Part shown: in pieces, positions 2,834 to 31,157 of the stretch
Position numbering within the stretch: the first letter of the stretch is position 1
Layout: every line of letters starts with the position of its first letter
Virus record (IMG/VR): IMGVR_UViG_3300037296_000148
Location: 1-31,157 of that record
DNA length: 31,157 bases
Source of the DNA: a virus
Reading direction: 5' to 3' (one strand)
Position numbers and translations under genes: made by a program
Notes under the pieces: model-generated
The model's database searches: none
Seen by the model: only the letters and a program-made list of their open reading frames with translations
Told to the model about the DNA's origin: nothing

Positions 2834-2912
2834 CGCATGATGAGCAGGCCCCAATTGGGAGTCACAGGCGCAATCATGCAGCTTGTCAAGCACAGACGAC
2901 GAGGACGATATC

Positions 2913-4121
2913 ATGACGAACTACACAAACAGCGACGACGAGCTGAAGACATTCAAGACGGCGGACATCCGCGGGCTTCTGCCGCTGATGGGCTGGCACG
3001 TAGTGAGCCAGGCCGAAGCTGCGCGGGTTGACAAGCACCGCACTAAGCCGGGCTATTGCTTCACAAACGGGTCGCAGTTCATGAACGTATCACTTAGCAA
3101 CCAGGGTGACGGAACCTGGATGTGGTTCTCTGTGACCGGCTACATTTGCGGTAAAGCACACGGAACAATTATTGATATTGCGAAAGATCATGTGGGTGGC
3201 AACTTCGGCAAAGCCCGCGTCTTCTTGCGTGAAGCTCTGTCTATCTCCCGGCCCTCTACCCCCGTCCCCTCTGCCGCCGCCACCAATACCACTCCTCTCC
3301 AGAATCCTTCTGCAGTTGTGTGTTCCACCCGCCCCCTTCCTGCCCCCGTAGAGATCGACGAAAAGAAAACGCCGGACCAGCTTGAAGCTGAATACCGCGC
3401 TTTGTCGACAAGCATCAAAGCCGGCAAAGCTAAGCACTCTTTGTTTACGACCCGCGGCATCGATCTTGTTGACGATACGTTCAGCTACGCAATGCGCGAG
3501 ATGAACAACCACAGCGGTTACGTTTTTCCGTATTATAATTTTAATGAAGGATCTAACGGCATTTCGTTTGCTGGCTACGAGATCAAAAAAGAGAATGGCT
3601 TTAAGCAATATGCAAAAGGCGGCCGCGCCGGATTCTGGATCGGCGGGGACGTTGAGACGTCGACCGTCATCGTCTGCGAGAGCCCGCTCGACGCGATGGC
3701 ACATTCGATCATCACGCAATCCGGTGCGCTCTACGTCGCCGTGCGCAGCGGCTCTGAGGCTGACGTCGTGCGATTCATCGCACACAAGTTCAAGCGCGGC
3801 TACGCCGGTCACGTCAGGCTTGCGTGCGATCACGACGCCGCCGGATATGGTTACGTCAATAAGATCTGGTCCGGCATTGACCGCCTCGGCTTGAAAGCTG
3901 AAGGCATCGTTGTCACGCAAGAGAACCCGTTGAATGGTGAAAACGATCACTGCGACGTCTTGAAGAAGATCGTCAATATCAGAGATGATGAAAACGGTAA
4001 GGCCGCGCGGAACTACATGCGCACCCGCATTGCTGAACTGCAAGAAGATGCGCGCCGCATTGAGATGCCATTCCGCGAGACAGTGACGTTTCAGCAAGCG
4101 AGCGCAGAACTTGCGATGTAG
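2913..4121 (+). CDS. Toprim-domain primase-like protein
   Basis: This 402-residue protein is probably the phage primase or a primase-like replication factor. The N-terminal part contains a degenerate zinc-finger-like segment (TGYICGKAHGTIIDIAK, 75-91), reminiscent of CHC2 primase fingers. After a Pro/Ala-rich linker (about 110-147) comes a Toprim domain: VCESPLDAMA with E256, then ACDHDAAG with D306 and D308, and a later NDHCDVLKK resembling the KDxND tail of Toprim_2 proteins. ATG at 2913 is chosen over TTG at 2883 because GAGGA sits 7 bases upstream. Its place between terminase and connector genes is unusual; the only other replication gene seen is the VapE helicase at 27820. The linker is encoded by the dispersed pyrimidine repeat. 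Confidence 0.8.
   Translation: MTNYTNSDDELKTFKTADIRGLLPLMGWHVVSQAEAARVDKHRTKPGYCFTNGSQFMNVSLSNQGDGTWMWFSVTGYICGKAHGTIIDIAKDHVGGNFGKARVFLREALSISRPSTPVPSAAATNTTPLQNPSAVVCSTRPLPAPVEIDEKKTPDQLEAEYRALSTSIKAGKAKHSLFTTRGIDLVDDTFSYAMREMNNHSGYVFPYYNFNEGSNGISFAGYEIKKENGFKQYAKGGRAGFWIGGDVETSTVIVCESPLDAMAHSIITQSGALYVAVRSGSEADVVRFIAHKFKRGYAGHVRLACDHDAAGYGYVNKIWSGIDRLGLKAEGIVVTQENPLNGENDHCDVLKKIVNIRDDENGKAARNYMRTRIAELQEDARRIEMPFRETVTFQQASAELAM
3313..3347 (+). repeat. Dispersed pyrimidine-rich repeat, copy A (inside Toprim gene)
   Basis: This copy begins CAGTTGTGTGTTCCACC and ends in CCGCCCCCTTCCTGCCC-type sequence. It shares nearly every base with the copy at 10998-11035 and lies inside a longer C/T-rich stretch (3241-3350). 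It encodes part of the Pro-rich linker of the Toprim protein and lacks one T relative to the other copies. Confidence 0.75.
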
Positions 4122-19236: not shown

Positions 19237-19262
19237 CATTCCGCGGTATTCAGCGGAATAAT
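19233..19262 (+). promoter_or_regulatory. Repressor-integrase promoter with operator
   Basis: TTGACA (19233-19238), an 18-base spacer and AATAAT (19257-19262) resemble a sigma70-type promoter. Inside lies the perfect inverted repeat ATTCCGC (19238-19244) and GCGGAAT (19253-19259) with an 8-base spacer. A repressor bound here would cover both promoter boxes, so the downstream helix-turn-helix protein probably controls itself. Confidence 0.7.
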
Positions 19263-19290
19263 GCGAAGAAATAGTATTTCGGAGCATCAA

Positions 19291-19665
19291 ATGAACGACG
19301 AAGAGTTGCTGGCGCATATCGCAGAGAAGCTTGCTGAACTCACGAAGAAGTCAGGATTGACGCAAGCAGAGGTTGCGCGCCGGGCCGGTCAGCAGCGCGA
19401 CGCATACGGCCGCTACGTTCTCGGCAAGACGATGCCACCGACGTTCAAGCTTGCCGCTATTGCGCGCGTTTTTGGCGTTGAGCCCGGCGACATAGATCCT
19501 GTGCGCGACTATTCGACAGTTCTGATGCAGCCGGACAAGCACAACGCGTTCAAGATCACGCCGTCAGACGACGGCGATATGGTTCATCTTGCGCTTGATA
19601 TCGATCTGCCGATCGAAGTCGCGGGCAACGTCATGAAGCTTGTGAATCCGTATCGGATCGGGTGA
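19291..19665 (+). CDS. Helix-turn-helix repressor, XRE type
   Basis: A 124-residue protein with an N-terminal XRE-type helix-turn-helix (ELTKKSGLTQAEVARRAGQQRDAYGRYVLGKTMPPTFKLAAIARVF, about residues 15-60), followed by a small C-terminal part without peptidase residues, so it is not a LexA-cleavable CI. It probably regulates lysogeny and its own operon through the operator at 19238-19259. ATG 19291 has GGAG 7 bases upstream; ATG 19261 is less likely because it would coincide with the transcription start. The stop overlaps the integrase start, so repressor and integrase are made together. Confidence 0.85.
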   Translation: MNDEELLAHIAEKLAELTKKSGLTQAEVARRAGQQRDAYGRYVLGKTMPPTFKLAAIARVFGVEPGDIDPVRDYSTVLMQPDKHNAFKITPSDDGDMVHLALDIDLPIEVAGNVMKLVNPYRIG

Positions 19666-21345: not shown

Positions 21346-21375
21346 CCATGGTTTTTCCGACACGGGCTGTATCGT
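21346..21375 (+). promoter_or_regulatory. Late-promoter-like element P4
   Basis: CCATGGTTTTTCCG, a 10-base spacer and TATCGT (followed by TG), ending 26 bases before the endolysin ATG at 21402. It differs from the consensus 14-mer at one base. Confidence 0.75.
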
Positions 21376-21401
21376 TGAAAAAACGGCGCAGGAGCGGCAG
21401 G

Positions 21402-22055
21402 ATGGATCTTAAAATTGGCGATACACAACTGATCATAGCGACTGCGCGCGCTGAAAATCTGTTGCGCAATGAGCTGGCTTACGCACTTGCTACGACGTAT
21501 CACGAGACCGCTTTCACAATGAAACCGGTCAGAGAAACGCTTGCGAAAAATGACGCCGAAGCCATCCGGATCCTGGATAAATCCTGGTCCGCCAAAAAAT
21601 TGCCCTGGGTGAAGATCCCATATTGGCGCTATGACGATGCTGGCCGGTCGTGGCTGGGTCGTGGATACGTGCAGCTGACTTGGTATGTGAATTATCTTGC
21701 GATGACGCGACGCCTCGGCGTGGACCTGATGACTGACCCGAACGCGGCCCTGCGGCCCGACGTGGCGGCCCGGATCTTAATCATCGGCATGAAAGAGGGC
21801 ACGTTCACCGGTAAGCGGTTGAGCGACTATATCACTCTGAAGAAGAGTGACTTCAAAAGTGCGCGGCGGATCATCAACGGCACAGACAAAGATGATCAGA
21901 TTGCAGCTTATGCGCGTGCGTATGACGCTGCGCTGACCACGGCCGGCTACGGCGTCGACCCTGCTCTGCCTGTCAAGATCGAACATCAGAAGCCTGCGGC
22001 GTGCCTGTTCGGCCCCTTCCTGCCCTCGAGCTGGCAGAAGATCTGGACGCGCTGA
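21402..22055 (+). CDS. Endolysin, glycoside hydrolase 19-like
   Basis: A 217-residue muralytic enzyme. TTYHETAFTMKPVRE carries the probable catalytic Glu (E35), and SWLGRGYVQLTWYVNY (about 83-98) is the signature seen in family 19 chitinase-type endolysins that cleave peptidoglycan. No signal peptide or membrane anchor is visible, so it needs a holin to reach the wall. The C-terminus (PFLPSSWQKIW) is aromatic. ATG 21402 has GGAG upstream; a GTG start 54 bases earlier would lie inside the promoter element. The stop overlaps the inner spanin start. Confidence 0.9.
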   Translation: MDLKIGDTQLIIATARAENLLRNELAYALATTYHETAFTMKPVRETLAKNDAEAIRILDKSWSAKKLPWVKIPYWRYDDAGRSWLGRGYVQLTWYVNYLAMTRRLGVDLMTDPNAALRPDVAARILIIGMKEGTFTGKRLSDYITLKKSDFKSARRIINGTDKDDQIAAYARAYDAALTTAGYGVDPALPVKIEHQKPAACLFGPFLPSSWQKIWTR

Positions 22056-22372: not shown

Positions 22373-22393
22373 TGGGGTGGTGGAATATAAGCC
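22361..22393 (+). repeat. G-rich repeat copy with GGTGGAATATAAG
   Basis: ATGGGAGGGTAGTGGGG followed by GTGGTGGAATATAAG. The 13-base string GGTGGAATATAAG recurs at 29828-29840, in both places followed 8 bases later by CAAAAGT. It looks like the dispersed pyrimidine repeat read on the opposite strand. It overlaps the end of the inner spanin and the start of the outer spanin. Confidence 0.55.
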
Positions 22394-22658
22394 TTTCTTT
22401 CAAAAGTGGACGCGTCCTTTCTTCTTCGCAATTTGTGTGTTTCCACCTGCCCTTTTCCTGCCCTCTTGCTCCTCCAGCCAAATAAAAATGGCTGAATATC
22501 AAAATCTTCCAGAATCCAAAATTTCCTGCCCCCTGCCCTCCCAAGCGCAAATCTTGACTGATCAATCGACGTATCGGGACTTAGCAGAGAGCCGGATTGA
22601 AGCGCTGGCGGGGTGGCGTGATTGTCACGCTGCCCTGACCATCGTGAACGGCGATTAA
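22377..22658 (+). CDS. Outer-membrane spanin lipoprotein, Rz1-like
   Basis: A 93-residue protein starting at GTG, with GGAGG upstream. The basic N-terminus (YKPFFQKWTR) is followed by a hydrophobic segment (FFFAICVFPPALF) and a lipobox LPSC with C31, so it should be lipidated and sent to the outer membrane. The mature part is Pro-containing (LPESKISCPLPSQAQI), then helical. Order and overlap with the inner spanin fit a two-component spanin pair. Part of the signal peptide is encoded by dispersed repeat copy C. A strong hairpin terminator follows 4 bases after the stop. Confidence 0.75.
   Translation: MVEYKPFFQKWTRPFFFAICVFPPALFLPSCSSSQIKMAEYQNLPESKISCPLPSQAQILTDQSTYRDLAESRIEALAGWRDCHAALTIVNGD
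22421..22464 (+). repeat. Dispersed pyrimidine-rich repeat, copy C (in spanin gene)
   Basis: TTCTTCGCAATTTGTGTG then TTTCCACCTGCCCTTTTCC then TGCCCTC. It aligns with copy B with few changes and encodes the hydrophobic part of the outer-spanin signal peptide. Confidence 0.7.
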
Positions 22659-22685: not shown

Positions 22686-22805
22686 GTCGTCATATATAAA
22701 TGTCTGTCCAGTTGTTCGCTACCGCGAATTAAGGGTGAGCACGTGGGTTAAATTTACCGCAAAATTTGTAGATCTATTCCCCAACCGCCCCTACGTCACC
22801 CCGTC

Positions 22806-22893
22806 ATGCGAACCCTGTCTTGCCACAGTTGTGACACAGTCTACTATCTGGACGTGTGAAAAGCATTGTCCAGTTGGTCGACAGGGTTCGCAT
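22806..22893 (+). repeat. 14-base inverted repeat with nested hairpins
   Basis: ATGCGAACCCTGTC (22806-22819) and GACAGGGTTCGCAT (22880-22893) are perfect inverted copies around 60 bases. Inside lies a second hairpin, CTGGAC (22848-22853) with GTCCAG (22868-22873). As RNA this would fold into a branched structure; as DNA it could form a cruciform or a paired protein site. Confidence 0.75.
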
Positions 22894-22898
22894 ATATT
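22866..22898 (+). promoter_or_regulatory. TTGTCC-N21-TATATT promoter-like site
   Basis: TTGTCC (22866-22871), 21 bases and TATATT (22893-22898), the arrangement also seen on the minus strand at 23807-23839 and, with one more base, at 29576-29609. It overlaps the inner arm of the inverted repeat and points towards the tRNA fragment; no coding gene follows. Confidence 0.4.
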
Positions 22899-22907
22899 CT
22901 ACAGTCA

Positions 22908-22957
22908 CACTTTTGGTAAGGGTGAGGTCGAGAGTTCAATCCTCTCTCACAGCACCA
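22908..22957 (+). other. 3' part of tRNA-Thr(GGT), attachment core
   Basis: The sequence folds as the 3' two-thirds of a tRNA: anticodon stem CACTT/GGGTG with loop TTGGTAA (anticodon GGT, Thr), variable region AGGTC, T-arm GAGAG-TTCAATC-CTCTC, acceptor strand TCACAGC, then ACCA. No D-arm or adjacent 5' acceptor strand precedes it. Such fragments in phages mark the core at which integrase recombines and rebuild the host tRNA after insertion. Confidence 0.85.
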
Positions 22958-23040
22958 TCTGAACCCCTTATTTTTAACGCTATCCTACAATAAGACAGAT
23001 GATTTGGGGTGCGGGCGTGAGGTAAATTTACCTTTTCCGA

Positions 23041-23684: not shown

Positions 23685-23806
23685 TTTGCTCGATCATCCA
23701 GCGAGGACCAGACTCGAACTGCGGCGGTTTTGTCATGTGCAGCACTCACCGCTTATCTGCATCGCACTTATCCGCTACCGGGCCCGTGCGCAGGGCTTAT
23801 GCTGTA

Positions 23807-23842: not shown

Positions 23843-24289
23843 TCACCAGATTTCGCATGAAATCAATTTATTTTCGTAGCGCGCGCCGGGCAAGTCATAG
23901 ATCCCGGGGTGGCCGCCGCAGGCATGGGCGCGCTCACAGATCATCAGCATGACGTAATTCACAAGCTCATCGTAGCGAGGTTGCCGGATCACAGAAACAT
24001 GCGCTTTATGGACGTCTACAGTGATGCACGGCTTACGCGGATCTCGAAGGGTGCCGGTCGCGTCTGGCACATCGAAGTCAAGGTCACCATTTTTCGCAAT
24101 GAAGAACTGGAACGTGTATCGATTGCGGTGCAGTAAGACGCCGGCGGCGGTCTGGGCCGCTTCGTGGATCATGGAGTGGAATTGATCAGCGATGCCGAAG
24201 AACAGTTTTTGATTCAAGGCCTCGGCTTCTTCATAGACGTCGTGGACGCCGGGCACGGGGATTTCTAAGTAGTCAGCGCGGATCATCAT
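23843..24289 (-). CDS. Early protein, unknown
   Basis: A 148-residue protein with no recognised family. It has an acidic N-terminal helix (HDVYEEAEALNQKLFFGIADQFHSMIHEAAQTAAG), a strand pair (RYTFQFFIAKNGDLDFDV), a second pair (PCITVDVHKAHVSVIRQ) and a helix with LVNYVMLMICERAHACGG. The alpha-beta layout could be an enzyme or inhibitor fold, but no catalytic motif stands out. Two ATGs in tandem (24289, 24286) follow GAGGATAAC, so the second has the better spacing. The upstream gap has tandem 10-base repeats and a hairpin. Confidence 0.55.
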   Translation of the reverse strand: MMIRADYLEIPVPGVHDVYEEAEALNQKLFFGIADQFHSMIHEAAQTAAGVLLHRNRYTFQFFIAKNGDLDFDVPDATGTLRDPRKPCITVDVHKAHVSVIRQPRYDELVNYVMLMICERAHACGGHPGIYDLPGARYENKLISCEIW

Positions 24290-25301: not shown

Positions 25302-25511
25302 TCAGCTGGCAGTGATGGACTGATACGCGAGTCGAGTAGGCTTCTGGATCTCGTTGGAAAAAGGTTCGCGACGCATGATGCCGCGGGTCTCGGCAGCTTT
25401 GGCTTCATCGACAGACACGAAGCGGCGGTTGCCGTCGGCATCGATGACGTATGCGGAGCGCTCGTTGGTGTAAGGCTTGCGAGCGAACTGGATATCGTTG
25501 CGGTTCGTCAT
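25302..25511 (-). CDS. Small early protein, unknown
   Basis: A 69-residue basic protein: MTNRNDIQFARKPYTNERSA, then a short hairpin-like core (YVIDADGNRRFVSVDEAKAAE) and a basic tail. The function is unknown; its size and its place as the first gene after the divergent control region suggest an early regulator, antirepressor or host-takeover protein. AGGA lies upstream of ATG 25511. A TTGTAGACAA palindrome (25556-25565) lies about 45 bases upstream. Confidence 0.55.
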   Translation of the reverse strand: MTNRNDIQFARKPYTNERSAYVIDADGNRRFVSVDEAKAAETRGIMRREPFSNEIQKPTRLAYQSITAS

Positions 25512-25806
25512 CGTGTATTCCTTCGGGGTTCAGGCTTCGCATGATTGCTCGGCTCTTGTAGACAAATGGGTATCAAACTGGACATCACAAGGGGCAGGCA
25601 CAAAAAAAAGTGCCCCCTGGCCACTTTTTTTTCCGCACATTAGTTCCGGCGCACGCTGCTATCTGGCAACACTACTTCGCCAGTCTCGTCTCATGATGAT
25701 ATGTTGTAATTTCTTTTTCCTATTCCGATTGACGCCATGCGAAATATTAGACAACTATCTCATCATGTGGACACGAATGTGTCTTGATCAAGTCAGGAGC
25801 TTAAAA
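25512..25806. promoter_or_regulatory. Divergent control region with A/T hairpin
   Basis: No gene lies here. The region separates a leftward gene from the rightward helix-turn-helix gene. It holds TTGTAGACAA (25556-25565), a CTGGACATC element (25578-25586), an 11-base inverted repeat AAAAAAAAGTG/CACTTTTTTTT (25602-25632), and a minus-strand GTGTCCACATG (25764-25774) that resembles the shared TTGTCCAC motif. A TTGACG (25729-25734) lies 71 bases before the GTG start of the rightward gene. Confidence 0.55.
25602..25632. terminator. A8/T8 hairpin
   Basis: AAAAAAAAGTG (25602-25612) and CACTTTTTTTT (25622-25632) pair perfectly around a 9-base C-rich loop. Each strand has a T-tract at its 3' side, so it can act as a terminator in both directions. 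It sits upstream of both flanking genes, where it would block read-through. Confidence 0.55.
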
Positions 25807-26397
25807 GTGGATGGAAAACAAGTGGAGCAGCGGCTCCAGGCCCTGGTGGGCACCGGGGCAAAGGGTTGGCAGTCACAAGCTGCGGATCTTCTCGACGTGT
25901 CGCAGCGCACAATCGCGCGCAACATCGCAACGCCCACGCATGAGTTCCTCAAACGCTTGGCGCAATATGATACGGAGTTCGGCATGATGCCACTTGATGC
26001 CATGGCCGCCGGTGCCCGTGACTGGATTATCGGACATTCAGCAGCCGAAGTTGACACGACTGACATCTTCCTCACGCACTTGCCGAAGCCCACGTTTTTT
26101 GTGCGTGCATCGCGCAGCATTGATGACGTCGGACTTTACGTGACTTGGCTGGACGCGCCTACGCCTGACCAGTCGCGAGAGCTCTTAGCTGAAGCGAAGA
26201 AGATCGTCATGGACTTCATCGACAACCCGGACCGGACGATGGATGCGGATGACATCGCAAAAGCGGTCATTGCAAGCGGAAAGCCTGCAAATCAAAGTGC
26301 GCCGATTTTAAAGCTAATTGCAGAAAGCCGGACGGAAAAGCTGGCAGAGGTCATGCGCATGCTCAAGTTGTATAAGTATAACCCGCCGCCACGCTGA
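25807..26397 (+). CDS. Helix-turn-helix regulator
   Basis: A 196-residue protein beginning at GTG 25807 with AGGAG 7 bases upstream. WQSQAADLLDVSQRTIARNIATP (about residues 23-45) has the form of a helix-turn-helix. The middle contains TDIFLTHLPKPTFFVRASRS and the C-terminal part is helical (QSRELLAEAKKIVMDFIDNPDRTM). It is the only rightward gene in a long leftward region, and the shared TTGTCCAC-like motif lies in its control region, so it could be the regulator that reads that motif. The end overlaps a convergent gene by 35 bases. Family not identified. Confidence 0.7.
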   Translation: MDGKQVEQRLQALVGTGAKGWQSQAADLLDVSQRTIARNIATPTHEFLKRLAQYDTEFGMMPLDAMAAGARDWIIGHSAAEVDTTDIFLTHLPKPTFFVRASRSIDDVGLYVTWLDAPTPDQSRELLAEAKKIVMDFIDNPDRTMDADDIAKAVIASGKPANQSAPILKLIAESRTEKLAEVMRMLKLYKYNPPPR

Positions 26398-27819: not shown

Positions 27820-29535
27820 TCAGAACGGGGCGTCGTTCATCGCCTCTTCCAGCAACTTCTGGAAGTCTTTCGAATTGAACTGAAGGTCGTGGATCAGACC
27901 GCGGATGCCGTGACGGTTCAGGTTTTTCGACGTCTTCGTGAGATATCCAGTGCGGCTTGCGGCTTCTCCCATATCAGCAACTTCGCGACCTTTGTAAGCG
28001 TCCGGTGGGTTACCGGTCGCGTTGTTGTAGAGCGACTTCAGATTGAAGCTGGACTCGACAGAGTAATGATCACCGCCATGCTTGAAGTTGTGATACAGTT
28101 GCGGGTCGCGCTTGCCTGGCTGGATCGTGTTCAGAATGTATTGATCGATTGCGTTCTTCATTACGTCAGCGCTGTCTTCAGTGCGGCGGCCGCTGTAAAG
28201 CGTCTCTGCATACTCTTCCGCTTCGGGTGACAAAGAGAGGTTCAGAGAACCGTCGGGCTCTGCAGACGTGCGCAGCATCTCGTGATAGATATGTTCAGCT
28301 TCGGCCCAGACTTGATCAATGATGCTGTCAAGCTTCGCAATATCGATGCGCTGCCGCTCTTTCAGGCCGATAAGGATTGGCCAAAAACGGCGGTTGTTGT
28401 TCGGGTCCGTCAGATAGTCCATCTTGTCTGCCGTTCCGGCTGCAATGAAACCCCGGTAGTATGTGCGTGTGCAGTTTCCGTAAGCGAGGCGCACGCTGTC
28501 TTCGTCTTGCGTCAGAAGGCCTTTGATGCGCTTGCTAGAGTGACCTGTGAACGCCTCCATCTCGGCGAACTCGACAACGTGAAGGTGCTTTGTCGCCTCC
28601 ACCCACTTTTCCAGGCTATCAATATTAAAGCTGGAAACGTTTCCGTGAAACCCGCGGCCAAGCTTTTTCACAAAAAGCGACTTCGACTGACCGCCCTTCT
28701 GACCACCATCAAAGACTACCATGTGGTCAAACTTGGTGCCGGGGTTTTCCATGCGCATCACGCCCGCAACGAACCACTTGATGGCCGTTTCGCGATGGTA
28801 GAGATTATCTTCTGCACCCAGCATATCGATCCAGAAAGTCGATAGACGCTCGACGCCGTCCCATTCAAACTGTGCGAAGAGGTCTTTGAGTGGATTGAAC
28901 TTGTTCTTGTCAGCTGCCATTTTCAGCGCAGACCTGATTACCTTGGCGTCCGGCGACATGCCGTAGCCGCCGATCGACTGTGGCGCGGAGAGCAAGCCCT
29001 CCAGCAGCGCGAAGAAGGCTTCATCGAAAGGGCGCATGCGTCCGCGCTCCAGTTCGAGTTTCGGAAAACCCGCGATGCGCGTATCGAAGTCACAGCACAT
29101 TTGCTCTGTATTAGTGAACTCATTGTGTGCGATCAGTCTTGTGAAACGCGGATCGTTCGTCATGATCTGGAAGACGTTGTTGACAGTCGGCTTGATCTCA
29201 CCAGAGCGAGGTGCGGTATCCATGTTCAAGCGCCATTCGCCATGGATTGCGGCAAACATGGCTTCGTCGCTGTCAAAACCATCATCAAGCAGATCATCGA
29301 TGTTGGGCAGTTCGGCAACGCCGTTGATCTCTTCGATCTGCGCAAGTGGCGCAACATCTGAAAAGGTCAGCGCGAAATTGTCGTTGTTCTCTATCGATGG
29401 CAGGACGTCAGCCACGATATCGTTGATCATCTCAGCTGTCGCAGGGGTGCCGCTCAAGTCATCATTGATACGGACCATTTCGGTTGTGTCGATCGTCGTC
29501 GCATCGTTCTCATGCGCGCTTGCTGTGTTCGTCAT
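27820..29535 (-). CDS. VapE-type replicative helicase/primase
   Basis: A 571-residue protein of the virulence-associated E (VapE) type, probable superfamily 3-like helicase. Visible are a P-loop GGQKGGQSKS (277-286), a Walker B VVEFAEME (320-327), an RTYYRGFIAAGTADK segment and the FLTDP-type YLTDPNNNRRFWPI (374-387) arginine region that typifies the family. The N-terminal third is acidic and variable. It would unwind the origin and move the fork, with the Toprim protein as partner. ATG 29535 has GAGGA 7 bases upstream; a longer start at 29664 would include untranslated iterons. The origin-like region lies directly upstream. Confidence 0.9.
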   Translation of the reverse strand: MTNTASAHENDATTIDTTEMVRINDDLSGTPATAEMINDIVADVLPSIENNDNFALTFSDVAPLAQIEEINGVAELPNIDDLLDDGFDSDEAMFAAIHGEWRLNMDTAPRSGEIKPTVNNVFQIMTNDPRFTRLIAHNEFTNTEQMCCDFDTRIAGFPKLELERGRMRPFDEAFFALLEGLLSAPQSIGGYGMSPDAKVIRSALKMAADKNKFNPLKDLFAQFEWDGVERLSTFWIDMLGAEDNLYHRETAIKWFVAGVMRMENPGTKFDHMVVFDGGQKGGQSKSLFVKKLGRGFHGNVSSFNIDSLEKWVEATKHLHVVEFAEMEAFTGHSSKRIKGLLTQDEDSVRLAYGNCTRTYYRGFIAAGTADKMDYLTDPNNNRRFWPILIGLKERQRIDIAKLDSIIDQVWAEAEHIYHEMLRTSAEPDGSLNLSLSPEAEEYAETLYSGRRTEDSADVMKNAIDQYILNTIQPGKRDPQLYHNFKHGGDHYSVESSFNLKSLYNNATGNPPDAYKGREVADMGEAASRTGYLTKTSKNLNRHGIRGLIHDLQFNSKDFQKLLEEAMNDAPF

Positions 29536-29575
29536 CTTCGTATCCTCGTGTGTTGTGTCGTTGTGACAGAACCGA

Positions 29576-29609
29576 AATATACACGACATCTGATAAAACA
29601 AGTGGACAA
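29576..29609 (-). promoter_or_regulatory. Helicase promoter with TTGTCC motif
   Basis: On the minus strand TTGTCCACTTGTT (29609-29597) and TATATT (29581-29576), 22 bases after TTGTCC. The 13-base motif is identical to that at 2821-2833 upstream of the Toprim gene. TATATT lies 40 bases before ATG 29535. Iterons begin within 5 bases of it. Confidence 0.65.
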
Positions 29610-29800
29610 ATTGCGTTTCCAACGATGATTTTTTCGTTTCCAACGTTTCCGCGCGGTAACCCACTGTAAACGCACGTTATTTTTCTATATTGGAAACGGC
29701 ATATTTCTCATTTCCAACGATAATACATTGCAACCTGCTGATTTTAAACACTTTTCACTCGAAATTGGAAATGGGAGCATTGGAAACGGGGTTTAGCCCC

Positions 29801-30123: not shown

Positions 30124-30435
30124 ATGACACGGGTCTACGGCATGCCAAAGCAGCGCGCGGGTATTAAATCGGTCACGAAAGATCAGCGCCGGAAGGTGCT
30201 GACGATGTTGCTTGCAGGCGCAAGCCGCACGTCTGTGACGATGGAGTTGGGCTGGACGGCGAAGAAGCTTAGCGAAGTCAGCAAAGAGCTCTGCGCATCG
30301 AATATCGATATTAGCAGCATTGACGATGTAAATGCACGCGTGCGCGACTGCGTTACTTGTGCAGAGCCATTCGCATCGCACCACCGCGGGCACCGCATGT
30401 GCAACTACTGCAAGTATGAAGCGGAGCAAGTATAA
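30124..30435 (+). CDS. Zinc-ribbon helix-turn-helix regulator
   Basis: A 103-residue basic protein. The N-terminal half looks like a helix-turn-helix (KDQRRKVLTMLLAGASRTSVTMELGWTAKKLSEV, about 19-52). The C-terminal part has C-VTC (residues 75 and 78) and MCNYC (92 and 95) around a His/Arg loop, a likely zinc ribbon of the kind seen in GcrA-like and phage regulators. It may control transcription of the late genes downstream. The start codon lacks a good ribosome-binding site; ATG 30142 is an alternative. It ends in a TAATG overlap with the next gene. Confidence 0.65.
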   Translation: MTRVYGMPKQRAGIKSVTKDQRRKVLTMLLAGASRTSVTMELGWTAKKLSEVSKELCASNIDISSIDDVNARVRDCVTCAEPFASHHRGHRMCNYCKYEAEQV

Positions 30436-31073: not shown

Positions 31074-31157
31074 AAAATTATATGCACTTGAAAAATAACG
31101 CAGAAAATTCACGGGTCCTCCTGCACCCCCCCCACCCTATGAGGTGGTTCTGACAAG
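31074..31157 (+). other. Intergenic stretch upstream of terminase, cos candidate
   Basis: The last 84 bases, joined to bases 1-70, make a non-coding stretch before the small terminase gene, where cos is usually found. It contains a run of eight Cs and a CCACC/GGTGG hairpin (31132-31147), then the 14-base terminal repeat. A/T-rich bases 31076-31110 may be a protein site. Confidence 0.5.
31144..31157. repeat. Terminal direct repeat, right copy
   Basis: Identical to bases 1-14. See the left copy. Confidence 0.85.

Follow-up and report, generated by a model that had tools for sequence, protein, structure and literature searches.

The stretch at 22913-22957 of the window, i.e. the whole virus record of 31157 b (GC content 54.9%), is almost certainly the attP of a temperate phage whose host is Loktanella or a close relative, and which would integrate into the tRNA-Thr(GGT) gene of its host by means of a tyrosine integrase. 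The sequences themselves show the identity to the host gene, a site occupied by an element with a related integrase, the gene restored in a joined sequence, and repeats whose box recurs among relatives; from these we infer the exact cut positions, the arm binding and activity of the integrase, and the host genus. What had been an anonymous viral contig can thereby be described as a temperate phage, with its insertion gene named and its host genus probable. The mechanism itself is ordinary and textbook; the phage is new, and what is added here is the start of host identity at the anticodon loop, a host fingerprint past the CCA end, probable arm sites and a shared target gene.

In the proposed mechanism, the integrase would recombine attP with the tRNA-Thr(GGT) gene of the host, the crossover lying in the loop TTGGTAA. 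The phage would bring an identical 3' half (45 bases) as well as 12 bases of the host 3' trailer, so that attL would regain a whole gene and attR would keep a dead fragment. The direct repeats on the two sides of the core (Table 1) would be held by the N-terminal domain of the integrase, with its catalytic domain on the core.

Table 1. Features around the proposed attP, and window ORFs that have relatives in the prophage of L. salsilacus DSM 16199 (percent identity).
Feature	Position	Strand	Basis or remark
ORF with relative on the integrase contig	2883-4121		38%
HTH regulator, overlaps integrase start	19261-19665	+	relative on the integrase contig, 62%
Tyrosine integrase, 349 aa	19662-20711	+	phrog_1, 2.2e-51; PF00589, 5.4e-20
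Endolysin, between integrase and attP	21348-22055	+	phrog_181, 1.5e-29
Small ORF 3' of endolysin	22377-22658	+	relative on the integrase contig, 60% over 43 aa
P-arm repeat: box RGGGTGNGNNCGTG (22732-22745) + GTTAAATTTACC	22728-22758	+	probable integrase arm-type site
14-nt perfect inverted repeat, P arm	22806-22819 / 22880-22893	.	right arm ends 19 b before core
Left core arm CACTT, the phage's own (hosts: CACCC)	22908-22912	+	comparison with host genes
Proposed attP core, 45-mer TTGGTAAGGGTGAGGTCGAGAGTTCAATCCTCTCTCACAGCACCA, equal to the anticodon-loop-to-CCA part of the host tRNA-Thr(GGT) gene	22913-22957	+	exact genome matches
Anticodon loop TTGGTAA, probable 7-bp overlap for strand exchange	22913-22919	+	identity edge
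Host trailer TCTGAACCCCTT, probably taken over with the tRNA end	22958-22969	+	12-nt match in L. salsilacus
P'-arm repeat: box GGGGTGCGGGCGTG (23006-23019) + GGTAAATTTACC	23002-23032	+	probable integrase arm-type site
ORF with relative on the attL contig	23843-24289		37%
ORF with relative on the attL contig	25477-26397		40%
ORF with relative on the attL contig	27820-29664		40%
ORF with relative on the attL contig	30124-30435		33%

The tRNA-Thr(GGT) end and the likely host

The 45-mer is present as a single copy in the window and comprises the loop TTGGTAA (anticodon GGT), the 3' anticodon strand GGGTG, the variable loop, the T-arm GAGAG/CTCTC, the acceptor strand TCACAGC, A and CCA. In the window, ARAGORN gives no tRNA gene call; thus, the fragment has no 5' half, and the full tRNA gene elsewhere in the phage that the earlier note had named as possible counter-evidence is absent. 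The 50-base fragment that it described (22908-22957) is CACTT followed by the 45-mer, with T-arm, acceptor strand and CCA as reported. Its anticodon stem had been called correct, which holds for the host-like 3' strand GGGTG but not for the 5' strand: since hosts have CACCC where the phage has its own CACTT, host identity starts at the loop and not in the stem.

An exact scan with the 45-mer of a collection of 84,980 species genomes matched at least 118 stretches, and a complete tRNA-Thr gene (5' half GCTGTGGTAGCTCAGTGG...) is found in 114 of the 118 matches listed, numbers that exclude chance as the origin of the 45-mer. The four matches listed that are without a complete gene are L036, L052, L094 and L122, the last being cut by a contig end. 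The proposed search of bacterial genomes for the tRNA end has therefore returned the exact 45-mer at the end of a complete tRNA-Thr gene in at least 114 stretches.

By NCBI name, 116 of the 118 matches listed belong to the Rhodobacterales, and the other two carry no order name. TCACAGC therefore narrows the host to the order only. The idea that this acceptor strand may identify the host thus stands for the order Rhodobacterales; the genus comes instead from the 12 bases past CCA. Among the 118 matches listed, the trailer TCTGAACCCCTT is matched in full only by L094 and L108, both of L. salsilacus DSM 16199, while the next-best match is that of L. fryxellensis (7 bases) and the other 115 share at most 5. 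TCTGAACCCCTT also follows one of the copies in G400, a genome of the same genus group as L. salsilacus. Because the full match is confined, among the matches listed, to L. salsilacus, the host is likely Loktanella or a near relative within the Rhodobacterales. The bases carried past CCA hence allow a finer placement of the phage than the tRNA fragment does.

A related prophage at the tRNA gene of L. salsilacus

L. salsilacus DSM 16199 encodes an integrase that is 67-68% identical to that of the window. The 45-mer lies 2092 b from this integrase and is preceded by ACACTT, as in the window, where the host gene has ACACCC, which sets the edge of identity at the loop; the stretch of the L. salsilacus attR that includes ACACTT and the 45-mer matches the window at 98.5% over 66 b. 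On a second contig, a complete tRNA-Thr gene (attL) is followed by relatives of window ORFs (Table 1). By coordinates, the window gene order is kept on both sides, with partial synteny. These features indicate that L. salsilacus carries a relative of the phage seated exactly at tRNA-Thr(GGT), with the fragment as attR and the complete gene as attL on two unjoined contigs (L133/L135). The occupied site, flanked by the complete gene and by the displaced fragment, is thus seen in a relative and not for the window phage itself.

Of the systems compared, this prophage is the closest to the window: the two have in common the tRNA gene, the left edge, the box described below at -181, a distance of about 2.1 kb from integrase to core and a Proteo-phage-1 RNA on the right side. 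Unlike the window, it is integrated and spread over two contigs, shares only part of the window genes (33-71%), has a terminase remnant on the integrase contig (first 48 aa only, 71%), and contains IS-like genes as well as a DNA-methyltransferase-like ORF near attL (both seen by eye). The Rfam Proteo-phage-1 RNA scores 51.1 bits at 23717-23796 (-) of the window, with a T-arm-like stretch seen by eye, and 42.6 bits at L135 4402-4485 (-). We found no published description of this prophage.

The sequence to the right of the L. salsilacus attR has no match in the other 117 listed 45-mer stretches (E 1e-8); a match came from the genus search of 9 genomes, where it resembles the 3' flank of the complete gene in G396 (L140), at 84% over 112 b, core included. 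As this flank is what directly follows the complete gene there, the G396 site is apparently empty, with only ~500 b following in the contig, whose position suggests that G396 is probably L. fryxellensis (L073). When the window attP was joined by script to L140 at the loop, attL was called as tRNA-Thr(GGT), as is attB, and attP and attR gave no call. Both the related integrase seated at the gene and the complete tRNA of the joined attL support the earlier prediction that the phage inserts into a tRNA-Thr(GGT) gene of its host and rebuilds the tRNA.

It could be argued that the fragment is a relic, namely a tRNA end taken up long ago and no longer used for integration, given that no lysogen of the exact window phage was found among the genomes examined and that 2202 b, with lysis genes and small ORFs, separate the integrase from the core. 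A distance above 1 kb is seen in 3 of the 47 distant relatives with a detected fragment (among the best 80 of 414 loci). We consider a relic very improbable, however, since the integrase is encoded in an open frame with a PF00589 match, the core and the 12-nt trailer are exact, and the left edge and arm position are common to the prophage seated at tRNA-Thr; a functional attP remains the preferred reading. In the integrase alignment, R192, H295, R298, H321 and Y331 are invariant, residues which we take to belong to the catalytic signature of tyrosine recombinases.

Direct repeats on both sides of the core

The paired TAAATTTACC sites that had been noticed flanking the tRNA fragment are both present, at 22749-22758(+) and 23023-23032(+), with a mean of 0.00 occurrences in 100 shuffles; a further occurrence at 23021-23030(-) arises because the second copy is a palindrome. 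Each site is the second half of one copy of a direct repeat, 31 nt long, whose copies lie at -185 and +45 of the core. In the window, the P and P' copies are identical at 24/31 positions, a value reached by 0/200 shuffles. G400 has a strong pair at -172 and +82 (26/31; 0/200 shuffles), and L. salsilacus a pair at -184 and +58 that is weak taken alone (20/31; 13/200 shuffles).

The box RGGGTGNGNNCGTG was defined on the window alone, where it lies at -181, and was then sought in the relatives. With one mismatch it is found in L. salsilacus at -181 and +61, in G400 at +72 and in G357 at -170, and with two mismatches in G400 at -182 and -178; the P arms of G617 and G627 contain none. Of six viral contigs in which other integrases adjoin this tRNA end (see below), none has the box within one mismatch in its P arm, and one (L008, +102) has it in its P' arm. 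The window itself holds a further one-mismatch fit, in the core at 22919-22932. Since the box lies at the same core distance in L. salsilacus and recurs in two more distant relatives, the repeats are probable integrase arm-type sites. Direct repeats on both sides of the core together with a shared box would, as putative sites, give a lambda-like arm arrangement.

As GGTAAATTTACC is a perfect palindrome and an HTH regulator is encoded ahead of the integrase (Table 1), the TAAATTTACC pair may instead be a repressor operator, which would leave the attP reading unchanged. This explanation keeps some weight but is the less favoured one: the 31-nt repeat is longer than the palindrome and flanks the core with a direct copy in either arm, and what the relatives share is the box half (-181, -181, -182/-178, -170) and not the palindrome. 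We thus retain the arm-type assignment. By eye, the 14-nt inverted repeat of the P arm was not seen in L. salsilacus or G400, and ATAAGAC motifs were seen in the att arms.

Target choice among related and unlike integrases

The exact 45-mer is carried by six other viral contigs, in which integrase ORFs lie 10 to ~350 b from it (called with PF00589 for the five scanned, and by tblastn for L005). Four of these integrases are 25-32% identical to that of the window, and those of L004 and L006 fall below detection. The end of tRNA-Thr(GGT) thus appears as a target common to unlike tyrosine integrases. In L006, a second integrase-like ORF (2-577) was seen by eye to begin across the 45-mer from its integrase, a possible tandem element. 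Phages do carry tRNAs, and Roseobacter phage CRP-810 is reported to have a tRNA-Thr gene beside its site (PMC11288001), so the fragment could in principle belong to a tRNA gene of the phage, or to a small RNA that derives from a tRNA and acts in trans. With no 5' half, no ARAGORN tRNA and unlike integrases adjoining the same 45-mer, the probability of this is negligible next to that of an attP.

G400 points to repeated hits on one tRNA-Thr gene. Its complete gene has the core at 2395695-2395739, a 45-mer copy at 2283894-2283938 lies near an integrase 43-45% identical to that of the window, and a third copy at 2254472-2254503 begins only at GGTCGAGAG, which is what a crossover closer to the T-arm should leave. 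About 112 kb separate two of these copies (G400:C1:2283894-2395739), and with the third, partial copy beyond, the arrangement reads as a large or tandem island at tRNA-Thr.

Published systems are consistent with this target. Rhodobacteraceae prophages sit in tRNA-Thr among other tRNA genes (PMC8224337), and integration of CRP-810 (OR671924) into tRNA-Thr was PCR-verified (PMC11288001). CRP-810 resembles the window in this site and in a stretch that matches 22913-22957 at 91%, but its integrase is only 24% identical over 255 aa and directly adjoins the core. Rhizobium phage phiU (AB004561) has an annotated 'core sequence for lysogenization' overlapping a region that shares 85% identity with the core of the window, although its host is Rhizobium. 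The Islander tDNA islands of anticodon subsite A (PMC4383910) likewise have a 3' tDNA fragment, a tyrosine integrase, a restored tDNA and an anticodon-centred crossover; of these subsite A features, the window has the tyrosine integrase gene and an attP tRNA end that restores the gene in the joined sequence. It differs from them in that it represents a free phage, whose attP is uninterrupted, and not an integrated island. Microcystis phage Mae-Yong1326-1 (OP028995.1, 22971-23018) has an unannotated stretch 91.7% identical to the tRNA-Thr end, and its true host may be an alphaproteobacterium.

Close relatives of the window integrase are rare: 2/394 family genomes (E<=1e-50), 2/9 genus genomes (1e-30) and 4/390 order genomes (1e-60), L. 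salsilacus itself being one relative in each count. The G357 integrase (49% identical) adjoins 58/58 bases of tRNA-Ser(GCT) from loop to CCA, with the identity edge likewise at the anticodon loop and a complete tRNA-Ser(GCT) gene on another contig. The G617 and G627 integrases (44-47%) are also at tRNA-Ser(GCT), and ARAGORN calls a complete gene in G627; the G617 frame (G617:C10:101205-102272) has one in-frame TGA and is possibly a decayed gene. Prophages of the same type at another locus had been named as a finding that would count against the proposed site, and here the outcome is divided: the closest relative (67-68%) and G400 use the same gene as the window, whereas G357, G617 and G627 (44-49%) use tRNA-Ser(GCT).

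Among viral contigs, a single-sequence integrase scan gave one relative (33%), and a search with a four-row alignment gave 414 loci, of which the best 80 were kept, near-identical contigs included. In 44 of these best 80 of 414, a tRNA 3' fragment that spans the loop to CCA lies no more than 1 kb away, against 0 in a shuffled control; by tRNA, these are Pro 18, Val 14, Thr 5, Gly 2, Met 2, Arg 2 and Tyr 1. No fragment within 1 kb was found in 36/80, and a looser regex found none in the whole fetched stretch in 33/80; both regexes are blind to fragments that start elsewhere, because they require the shape of an anticodon loop. A quick tree was built from 85 rows, of which six are near relatives and 79 come from the 80 distant ones, one being dropped for its short frame. 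The six form one group (SH-aLRT 100), within which G400 (Thr) lies outside and the window and L. salsilacus (Thr) stand beside the three Ser rows. When Val and Arg are divided by anticodon, a minimum of 18 changes on this tree accounts for the tRNA labels, compared with a mean of 29.4 after shuffling.

These comparisons indicate that related integrases switch tRNA (Thr, Ser(GCT), others) but keep the place, the anticodon loop. That integrase subfamilies keep to one place within the tRNA gene is established (PMC4383910 and an archaeal review). A tentative explanation, which we hold to be somewhat doubtful, is that the integrase subfamily reads the anticodon stem and not a particular tRNA, with the loop as an interchangeable overlap; Thr(GGT) would then have given way to Ser(GCT) via the shared CACCC/GGGTG, with the arm box kept. 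In G357, CACCC-N7-GGGTG occurs at 7 places, and the only tRNA genes among them are tRNA-Thr(GGT) and tRNA-Ser(GCT). The stems of G617 and G627, of the same tRNA-Ser branch, speak against stem reading, as they are CTCCC/GGGAG. A strict CACCC/GGGTG stem as a general rule is ruled out by these two and by the many stems that the 44 labelled relatives show. Together, the arm box and the split of close integrases between Thr and Ser offer a small, testable set for studying how tRNA integrases change target.

A megablast of window positions 1-25000 found no match in the phage collection. For the terminase relatives L163 and L164 (71-72%), the stretches covered contain neither an integrase match nor a tRNA, so that they are uninformative on the attachment site. 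Finally, the window ends in a 14-base direct terminal repeat, GTGGTTCTGACAAG (1-14 / 31144-31157), which is short compared with an assembly overlap and perhaps represents a cos end beside the terminase genes.
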